A stretch of DNA of 64,000 nt from Natrinema salaciae (GTDB lineage Archaea > Halobacteriota > Halobacteria > Halobacteriales > Natrialbaceae): the NCBI RefSeq assembly GCF_900110865.1, contig NZ_FOFD01000003.1:372001-436000 (forward strand), read 5' to 3'. This document shows, in pieces, positions 24,384-26,857 of the stretch; the stretch's first letter is position 1; each line of letters begins with the position of its first letter. Made by a program: the position numbers and the translations under genes. Under the pieces are notes generated by a model that saw only the letters and a program-made list of their open reading frames with translations, was not told the origin of the DNA and did not search any database.

Positions 24384-26801
24384 CTACTCCACGACGATCG
24401 TGCCGACCATGCCGGCTCTCTCGTGGGGGATACAGAGATACTCGTGTTCGCCGGTCGTCTCGACGGTGTGGACGTACGACTGGCCCGACTGTACCGCACC
24501 CGTTCCGTTTTCCCAGCCCTCACGGGCGCTCGACTCGCTCTCGAAGCCGCCCGAGGCCCAGTACGCGGCACCGTCCGGAATCCCGTCTTCGACGGCCGTC
24601 ACCGAGTGTGGCTCGCCTCCGACGTGTTTCCAGGCGATGGTGTCACCCGTTTCGACGGTGAGTTCCGCGGGCTCGAACGCCACGGCCGTCATGTCGACGA
24701 CGTGGTCGGCGTCCTCGGGAACGCCCTCGACGACGTTCGGACCGCCGGCCAGGTCGGGCTCGCTTCCGCTCTCGCTTTCCCCCTCGCCGCCGGGCACTGC
24801 GTTCGGCGCGCCGGCGACCGCGAACTGCGCTCGCAGCGCCGCCGTCGCGAACGTTTCGGCGGCCGCGCTCACGCCCGACCCCGACTCGAGCGCGCCGACG
24901 AAGTCGTTCAGCGCCGCTTCGAACCCCTCGTAGGCCTCCGTGTCGGCCGCTTCGAGGAGTTCGTGGACGCGCGCTTCCTCGAACCGGGCGAACGCGTCCC
25001 GTCCGATCGACGCGGCCGCGCCGTCGAACGAGCCGCCGGCCGCCGCGACCACGGCGTAGATCGCCTCGACCGCCTCCGCGTTGAACTCGCCGCTCGCCGT
25101 CGGAACGTCTCCACCGCTCCCCGCAGCGCTGCTGGCCGCCTCGAGCGCGCCCTCGAACGACTCGTAGCGGTCGTGGTCGGCCTCTTCGAGCGCCTCGTGG
25201 AAGCCGCCCGCGCCGCCCTCGAAGTGCTGGAACGCTGCCTGAACGACGGTCTCGGCGCGTCCGGTTTCGCCGAGGACGGCCAGGACGCCCGCGTCGAACA
25301 CCCGCGCGGCCATGTAGCCGCTCTCGACGGCGCTGACCTGCGCCGTCGTTCCGGCGGTCGTCTCGAACTCGAGCAGCGTCTCGCGGATGCCGGCGACGTG
25401 TTCGTCGACGCTCGCCGCGTCGTCGTTCTCGAACGCCGTGATGAGTCCGTTCAAGTGCTCTTCCTCGAAGGACTCGTACAGCGATTCGTCGGTCTCCTCG
25501 AGCGTCTCGTGAAAGTCGGCCTCGTTGCCCTCGAAGGTCTGGAACAGCCCGCGAGCGGTCTCGGCCGCGACCCCGTTCTCGCCGAGCCGATAGCGCTCGT
25601 ACGCGTCCTCGACGCGGGCTTTGACGAACCCGGCCTCGAGCAGTGCGGGTTCGACGCCGGTGCCGAGGGTTTCGATCCCGGTGACGAGCGCGCCGTCGAT
25701 CGTCTCGACCGCGCTGCTGACGCCGTCCGCGTCGTCGTTCTCGATGGCCGTCGAGAGCGCCTCCAGTCCCTCGTGTTCGAACCGCTGGTAGGCGTCTTCG
25801 CTGGCCTCTTCGAGGGCCTCGTGTGCCCGTGCCTCCTCGAAGTGGGCGAACACGTTCTCGACGATCCGCTTCGCCGCGTCCGACCGGCCGTGCTCGAAGA
25901 GCCACGCGGCATCTCGCACCCGTAATCGATAGACGTTCAGCGCGGCCGCGTGGGCGAACGCCGTCGACGGCCCCCCGAGACTCGCGAGGGCGGCGGCGTC
26001 CCACCCCTCTGCCTGGAACGTCGCGACGTGGCCGGCGGCCGCGGCCGCCTCGGACGGCGCGACCGCGTACGCGCCGTCGACCGCGGCCGCGAGCCCGTCG
26101 CTCGCGCTCGAGCGCACCGCGTCGACGTCCTCGTTTTCCGCGGCGGTGACGACGCCGTCGACCGCCTCCTCGAGCCGTCCGGCCGCATCGCCGTCCGCGC
26201 TTTCGAGCGTCTCGGAGACGTCCGATTCCTCGAATCGGCTCCCCGTCCCCGAGGCGACCGTCGCGGCGGCGTCGACGGCACCGGCCGAGGCGAGTACGGC
26301 GGCGTTGCGGAGCGTGTCGCCGAACAACTGGAGGTCCAGCGCTTGCGTCACCTCGTCGCCGACGAGCGATCGCTGGGCCGACCGGAGCTGATCGGTCGCG
26401 ATCACAGCTTCCTCTCGAGCGCGCTCGAGGTCCCCGTCTTCGAGTCCGGCCGTCCGGAGTTCGCCGAGCGCCTCCTCGAACTCGGCGTAATTGTCCTCGC
26501 TCGTCTCCGCTAACGTTTCGTGGGCGTTGTTCGAACCCGACGCGTTCTCGAACCGTTCGAGGGTCGCCCGCGCGACGGTCGCACCGGCGTCGGCGTGGCC
26601 GCCGCGACCGAGCGCGAACGCGTCCCACACGCGGGCCCGGATCGCGTTCCATTCGGCCGCGACGCCGAGTTCGGCCGGCTTTGCCGTCCCGCTGTCCGTC
26701 GCTGACTGCTCTCCACCGAACGGACTGGCGCAGCCGGCGAGGCCGAGCGCGAGGACCGTTGCACCGCTCCCCTTCAACCAATCGCGTCGCGTTCGTTCCA
26801 T
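24384..26801 (-). CDS. Iron-box-controlled Tat lipoprotein with helical repeats and a C-terminal cupredoxin (DUF5059-like), 805 aa
   Basis: ATG 26801 starts a Tat lipoprotein signal (RRDWLKGSGATVLALGLAGC; lipid Cys24). Residues about 48-640 contain six related helical units with the pattern Phe-Glu, 5-10 residues, His-Glu-x-Leu-Glu. The His-Glu pairs are at 94/95, 327/328, 431/432, 535/536 and 613/614; the second unit (about 190) has lost its His. Residues 700-805 form a halocyanin-like cupredoxin with ligands His732, Cys790, His793 and Met798. I recall this family as DUF5059. The promoter bears two iron boxes and the mRNA would be leaderless. Repeated metal-type residues plus a cupredoxin suggest surface iron or copper handling, comparable in logic to EfeO; this is inference. 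Confidence 0.85.
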   Translation of the reverse strand: MERTRRDWLKGSGATVLALGLAGCASPFGGEQSATDSGTAKPAELGVAAEWNAIRARVWDAFALGRGGHADAGATVARATLERFENASGSNNAHETLAETSEDNYAEFEEALGELRTAGLEDGDLERAREEAVIATDQLRSAQRSLVGDEVTQALDLQLFGDTLRNAAVLASAGAVDAAATVASGTGSRFEESDVSETLESADGDAAGRLEEAVDGVVTAAENEDVDAVRSSASDGLAAAVDGAYAVAPSEAAAAAGHVATFQAEGWDAAALASLGGPSTAFAHAAALNVYRLRVRDAAWLFEHGRSDAAKRIVENVFAHFEEARAHEALEEASEDAYQRFEHEGLEALSTAIENDDADGVSSAVETIDGALVTGIETLGTGVEPALLEAGFVKARVEDAYERYRLGENGVAAETARGLFQTFEGNEADFHETLEETDESLYESFEEEHLNGLITAFENDDAASVDEHVAGIRETLLEFETTAGTTAQVSAVESGYMAARVFDAGVLAVLGETGRAETVVQAAFQHFEGGAGGFHEALEEADHDRYESFEGALEAASSAAGSGGDVPTASGEFNAEAVEAIYAVVAAAGGSFDGAAASIGRDAFARFEEARVHELLEAADTEAYEGFEAALNDFVGALESGSGVSAAAETFATAALRAQFAVAGAPNAVPGGEGESESGSEPDLAGGPNVVEGVPEDADHVVDMTAVAFEPAELTVETGDTIAWKHVGGEPHSVTAVEDGIPDGAAYWASGGFESESSAREGWENGTGAVQSGQSYVHTVETTGEHEYLCIPHERAGMVGTIVVE

Positions 26802-26804
26802 GCT

Positions 26805-26857
26805 TTTAGGCTCGCCTAAAGATACAAGTGAGTGTCGGTTTTTTCGGCGAGCCTAAA
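26805..26857 (-). promoter_or_regulatory. Paired iron-box operators of the repeat/cupredoxin lipoprotein gene
   Basis: TTTAGGCTCGCCTAAA at 26805-26820 and the weaker TTTCGGCGAGCCTAAA at 26842-26857 have centres 37 bp apart, with a TATA-like TTGTAT (minus, 26827-26822) between them. The proximal box ends four nt before the ATG, so a bound regulator would cover the transcription start. The plus-strand ferredoxin promoter begins beyond the distal box (about 26908), so cross-regulation is possible but not required. Confidence 0.8.

Follow-up and report, generated by a model that had tools for sequence, protein, structure and literature searches.

Several described proteins bring a cupredoxin or a helical metal-binding domain to bear on iron. 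In EfeO an N-terminal cupredoxin-like domain is followed by M75 at the C-terminus (PMC3143127), EfeM is an iron-binding protein for which sites formed by Tyr/His/Glu/Glu/Asp (site III) and by an acidic patch have been proposed (PMC9174327), and FtrB is a cupredoxin that oxidises Fe(II) for uptake (PMC11966278). In haloarchaea, halocyanin is the one-electron carrier to terminal oxidases (PMC8305020). Haloarchaeal iron uptake is poorly explained so far: energy-dependent uptake has been measured in Halobacterium and its gene is not known (PMC11349517). Here we consider a gene in a 64,000-nucleotide stretch of the Natrinema salaciae genome (the window), where a DUF5059 region is fused to a plastocyanin-type copper domain. 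DUF5059 has been catalogued as halocyanin or as a domain of unknown function; the sequence evidence indicates that the protein carrying it belongs to the iron regulon and has an invariant site of metal-binding type in repeated copies.

The gene is single-copy in the 4.86-Mb genome and its 805-aa product is the orthologue of Haloferax volcanii HVO_1228/hcpE (Table 1). The N-terminus, MERTRRDWLKGSGATVLALGLAGC, carries a twin-arginine signal and a lipobox. Pfam assigns residues 47–670 to DUF5059 (PF16502; 724.4 bits against a cut-off of 25) and residues 702–805 to Copper-bind (PF00127; 56.4 bits against 21.2). Across 57 full-length homologues R5, R6, G23 and C24 never vary, and neither do the copper ligands H732, C790, H793 and M798. 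A first-pass annotation of this DNA had described an 805-aa Tat lipoprotein with a full set of copper ligands, and both parts of that description are borne out, the former by the reading frame, the twin-arginine signal and the lipobox and the latter by invariance of the ligands in the homologues.

Table 1. Positions of the features discussed; coordinates refer to the window unless another locus is named
Feature	Residues	Positions	Strand	Remarks
DUF5059 + plastocyanin-type cupredoxin gene	805 aa	24384..26801	-	Tat lipoprotein; ORF and Pfam
Signal peptide		26730..26801	-	twin arginine R5 R6, lipobox LAGC, lipidated Cys24 (predicted)
Unit 1	47–147	26361..26663	-	E85-H94-A98-Y105-E109; second Glu lost
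Unit 2	149–247	26061..26357	-	degenerate, E191-S196-E200-A207-E211
Unit 3	278–379	25665..25970	-	E322-H327-E331-Y338-E342
Unit 4	383–483	25353..25655	-	E424-H431-E435-Y442-E446
Unit 5	485–587	25041..25349	-	E528-H535-E539-Y546-E550
Unit 6	588–664	24810..25040	-	E608-H613-E617-Y624-E628
Linker at the boundary of helical part and cupredoxin	673–682	24756..24785	-	acidic/Gly/Ser; low confidence, pLDDT < 50
Cupredoxin	700–805	24387..24704	-	ligands H732, C790, H793, M798
Proximal iron box TTAGGCTCGCCTAA		26806..26819	.	palindrome; starts 18 bases before ATG
Distal iron box TTCGGCGAGCCTAA		26843..26856	.	
Like-spaced box pair (47875/47911)		47875..47924	.	precedes siderophore synthesis genes
Extra cupredoxin of short-form locus L141		9883-10324		
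Extra cupredoxin of short-form locus L142		9949-10390		
Extra cupredoxin of short-form locus L144		6534-6972		

The DUF5059 region is built from six helical units. A profile of units 3–4 (55 sequences) matches additional, separate parts of this gene, with E values of 1e-20 to 8e-11, and further stretches of the DUF5059 gene in related genomes, and it matches no other gene in the genome. The units are therefore homologous repeats, and the six related units of the first-pass annotation stand. AlphaFold models are confident both for the whole protein (mean pLDDT 94.1 over residues 46–805, from a 61-sequence alignment) and for units 3–4 alone (pLDDT 97.8, pTM 0.92). Each unit is modelled as an up-down four-helix bundle in which a short link helix connects helix 2 to helix 3; three long helices are all that unit 6 has in the model, its own helix 1 being absent. 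Fold searching with the whole model gives cupredoxins alone among the matches listed; for units 3–4 the matches listed are generic bundles: PsbQ, ABLE, NarQ/NarX, catenin/vinculin and SMBP. The best of these, PsbQ (Z 12.5, 99 residues, 2.4 Å), lies in the range expected for helical bundles. Ferritin and imelysin are not among the fold matches listed for units 3–4, an absence that is not proof, and the ferritin family is likewise missing from the Pfam lists for the window protein and from the 25 families found most often in 55 members at E ≤ 10. The sole PDB sequence match of units 3–4, the designed helical repeat 8e1e (E 0.0027), is driven by composition and was rejected.

What recurs from unit to unit is a set of five polar residues, Glu–His–Glu–Tyr–Glu (EHEYE), in the pattern FE-x(4..8)-H-x3-E-x6-Y-x2-FE. 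In the AlphaFold models the first Glu ends helix 2, His-x3-Glu lies on the link helix and Tyr-x3-Glu takes up turns one and two of helix 3. The window protein has four copies of the strict motif, the complete ones of units 3–6, and 20,000 shuffles yielded none. Conservation was counted over 55 full-length sequences, the window protein and 54 other homologues. All five residues are present in 55/55 sequences for units 3, 5 and 6 and in 52/55 for unit 4, where the sole difference in the remaining three is a gap in the alignment at the position of the last Glu. Unit 1 is complete in 54/55, the sole exception being the window protein itself, with Ala98 where the 54 others have Glu. Unit 2 is the variable one, with EHEYE in 29/55, EYEYE (Tyr in place of His) in nine and mostly decayed versions otherwise (several EYAAV-like; ESEAE in the window protein). 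The first-pass annotation had credited five of the six units with a His–Glu pair, which agrees with His94, 327, 431, 535 and 613, and had allowed that the pairs might prove non-conserved in homologues; instead, the set is essentially invariant across them in units 1, 3, 4, 5 and 6. Taken with the model, two i,i+4 pairs and a further Glu at one end of the bundle make a plausible candidate metal site of three Glu, one His and one Tyr, the five side chains being expected, from the predicted secondary structure, to lie close together. The reading as a predicted metal site is supported by the invariance and repetition of these residues.

The promoter places the gene among iron-responsive genes. Two iron boxes flank a candidate BRE/TATA-like stretch upstream of the start codon, and TTAGGCNNGCCTAA, the pattern used for matching, occurs six times in the window, where chance would give 0.46. 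A like-spaced pair at 47875/47911 precedes siderophore genes of the IucA/IucC type and a lysine/ornithine monooxygenase, which run from 47997 on; the iron boxes that the first-pass annotation considered common to this gene and the siderophore operon are indeed shared. Among the named genomes the proximal box is found upstream of the DUF5059 gene in 67/67 cases and the distal box in 63/67, 33–37 bases apart, at a chance rate of 0.7% per promoter. Other boxes in the genome precede Peripla_BP_2/FecCD iron transport clusters and an ABC ATPase gene. In the published tables of two Haloferax studies, where it is given without interpretation, HVO_1228 rises by 4.2 log2 together with the siderophore cluster HVO_B0042-47 when endA is repressed (PMC7714728) and, in a cas1/fen1 mutant, falls by 2.9 log2 along with iucA, bdb and dat (PMC9051519). 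A palindromic box pair in the promoter and a change of expression alongside iron genes mark members of a haloarchaeal DtxR-type regulon, and both are seen here, the second in the Haloferax orthologue; Idr, SirR and TroR are the candidate regulators that the Haloferax iron-starvation proteome names (PMC11349517). Conserved boxes, boxes at other iron genes and co-expression in Haloferax together give strong support to iron control of the DUF5059 gene.

Boxes were also seen in other surroundings. A pair 36 bases apart at window positions 2566-2615 lies upstream of a gene at 1529-2443(-) (DUF7551/DUF7552), which makes that gene another candidate for the iron regulon. A two-cluster ferredoxin gene (window 26946-27269) diverges from the intergenic region that holds the boxes of the DUF5059 gene, the distal one lying about 90 bases away. 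Elsewhere in the genome, a box at L161 3012-3025 (G000:C2:231111) is near a ferritin-like (Dps-type) gene at 3336-3881(-) and, read on that gene's strand, lies downstream of its stop, so that its target is uncertain. Two perfect boxes at L159 3014-3027 and 4269-4282 (G000:C4:85013 and 86268) adjoin genes resembling nucleotide-sugar or glycosylation genes, not iron genes.

DUF5059 is found in 99/391 Halobacteria genomes (98 above the cut-off), in 31/86 genera and including Haloferax volcanii, and a phylum sample of 393 has none outside the order. Clustering of the open reading frames in the 10-kb flanks of 56 loci showed synteny at genus level only, and a conserved operon partner was rejected; with no gene consistently adjacent at these loci, the DUF5059 gene stands alone. 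Nine genomes carry a shortened version (the short form, about 500 aa) that comprises units 1, 2 and 6 and the cupredoxin. In six of these nine (L055, L056, L057, L059, L061 and L062) the copper site has His or Gln in place of its axial Met, a change that should shift the redox potential. The short-form loci L141, L142 and L144 also carry a further stand-alone cupredoxin lipoprotein, about 145 aa long, up to about 4 kb from the DUF5059 gene (Table 1). In a close relative, Natrinema gelatinilyticum BND6 (L146, about 10001-10900), the gene is a pseudogene: it has deletions, the frame is lost past unit 3 and the upstream region holds no intact iron box.

The copper domain is of plastocyanin type. 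Its loop, C-x2-H-x4-M, has plastocyanin spacing, and the best structural match is plastocyanin 2plt (Z 15.4, rmsd 1.0 Å, 91 residues). It scores below the cut-offs of both the NCBIfam plastocyanin profile (57 bits against 87.9) and the halocyanin domain TIGR03102 (34.5 bits against 93.8).

We propose that the protein is a surface iron collector made at low iron, whose copper domain exchanges electrons with iron, a reading to which we give an even chance. With iron present, a repressor, presumably of the DtxR family, would occupy the two boxes flanking the core promoter; as iron falls, the DUF5059 gene would be transcribed. The Tat system would export the protein folded, and the lipid on Cys24 would hold it at the membrane. 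Each intact four-helix unit would then take up a single metal ion, iron being the most likely, at that end of the bundle at which helix 2 meets helix 3. The putative ligands are the Glu that ends helix 2, the His and Glu of the link helix and the Tyr and Glu that begin helix 3, giving four intact sites in the window protein and five or six in its relatives. The plastocyanin-type copper could swap single electrons with the iron, the most likely step being the removal of one from Fe(II), which would leave Fe(III) held in the site. Oxidation would be the likelier direction, because a site made of carboxylates and Tyr stabilises Fe(III) and because halocyanin carries electrons on to terminal oxidases. 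Reduction of O2 is beyond a lone T1 copper, and an electron acceptor is therefore needed; the copper domain may pass the electron to halocyanin or a terminal oxidase. The iron might finally be handed to iron ABC systems of the same regulon, which are the presumed partners. Besides this need for an acceptor, three observations count against the iron-collector reading: (i) the fold of the units matches generic four-helix bundles only; (ii) there is no FTR1 in the class and no conserved neighbour, and thus no permease partner; and (iii) HVO_1228 is not mentioned in the main text of the Haloferax iron-starvation proteome (PMC11349517).

The protein could also be read as an iron-sparing electron carrier, a copper protein made at low iron that supplies respiration when haem and iron carriers are short, with the helices merely lifting the copper domain off the membrane. 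The complete T1 copper set, the plastocyanin fold and the iron control of the gene all suit such a carrier, as does the role of halocyanins as haloarchaeal one-electron carriers (PMC8305020). A spacer, however, needs no polar set of metal-binding type, five residues strong and invariant in five units. The genome, moreover, already encodes stand-alone cupredoxins: two share the subfamily, at 49 and 44% identity, and one is weaker. We regard this explanation as unlikely.

A role on the siderophore route is less probable again. The protein would here be a surface reductase or docking protein for ferric siderophores, its units holding ferri-siderophores or ferric ions and its copper domain delivering the electrons that release Fe(II). 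Such a role would be in keeping with the regulon and co-expression common to this gene and siderophore synthesis. Genomes with DUF5059 do have IucA/IucC somewhat more often than others (37/98 against 74/293; odds ratio 1.8, p 0.02), but 61/98 carriers are without it, and a tight link to siderophore synthesis was rejected on this weak association; uptake of foreign siderophores would still be possible in those genomes. Known low-potential ferric siderophores are also hard to reduce with a T1 copper.

We think it improbable that the polar residues form a capping network with a structural role in the bundles, the protein having some other surface function such as adhesion or ligand sensing. Pointing that way are the lack of any close Foldseek match for units 3–4 (none at E ≤ 0.001), the sensor-type bundles (NarX/NarQ, McpS) that VIA lists among generic four-helix bundles, and weak TarH matches. 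The window protein itself provides a counter-example: its unit 2, which has neither the His nor the Tyr, is still predicted to be folded, with pLDDT > 90, so the set looks functional rather than structural. In homologues, the set of this unit is mostly either kept whole or decays together, and iron-box control accompanies the gene in every homologue examined. Least probable of all is that the sites bind Cu, Mn or Zn and serve as a metal buffer or copper-loading platform, as weak SMBP similarity in 18/55 members (best E 9e-5, and 3u8v with Z 9.9 over 83 residues) might suggest, since the gene shares its regulation with iron genes and a set of three Glu, one His and one Tyr is rich in oxygen, as is typical of iron and not of copper.

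The iron-collector reading can be set against the systems that the protein most resembles. HVO_1228, annotated as hcpE or halocyanin, is a member of the same family (DUF5059, PF16502) across the whole helical part, at 724 bits. Plastocyanin and halocyanin share the cupredoxin fold and the T1 ligands; unlike in plastocyanin, the stretch between His732 and Cys790 is longer in the window protein and the domain is fused to DUF5059. SMBP (PF16785) is a four-helix bundle of similar size, superposing at 2.5 Å, but the sequence matches fall below the Pfam cut-off (12.1 bits against 29 for the window fragment), and the similarity may reflect the common bundle arrangement. In FtrAB(CD), the FtrB copper site involves Asp118/His121 and there is an FTR1 permease partner, whereas FTR1 is absent from the class here.

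The first-pass annotation drew a comparison with EfeO-type proteins. EfeO/EfeM of the EfeUOB system and the present protein are alike in being extracytoplasmic and iron-regulated and in pairing a cupredoxin with helical bundles that bear His and Glu, and they may work alike. The analogy does not extend to architecture or partners. The M75 domain (PF09375) gives no match to the window protein at E ≤ 1, is not one of the 25 families most often matched by 55 members (E ≤ 10) and is above cut-off in 0/382 genomes of the class. The linkage to FTR1/EfeU that the annotation thought worth seeking is not there, with FTR1 in 0/391 Halobacteria genomes and the E. coli and B. subtilis controls positive, and an Efe-type system was rejected on these two counts. 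The imelysin fold has two four-helix bundles with the site between them; the units here are four-helix bundles, and imelysin is not in the matches listed. Domain order is reversed, helical then cupredoxin, and the single GxHxxE motif of EfeO/imelysin is replaced by an invariant HxxxE spacing, once per unit. The DUF5059 family has up to six predicted sites and a full T1 copper set of plastocyanin type.

About a quarter of the sampled haloarchaeal species carry a DUF5059 protein and its control places the gene among iron-starvation genes; it is probably a widespread, unstudied means of collecting iron. More tentatively, and with the balance tilting against the full proposal, this may be an FTR1-independent collector unique to haloarchaea, in which three to six mononuclear EHEYE iron sites, one per four-helix bundle, are wired to a T1 copper that would oxidise the Fe(II) captured and pass the electrons on to respiration. 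If so, iron collection in these organisms would join many identical sites to a copper redox centre and would do so without the FTR1 permeases of bacteria and fungi.
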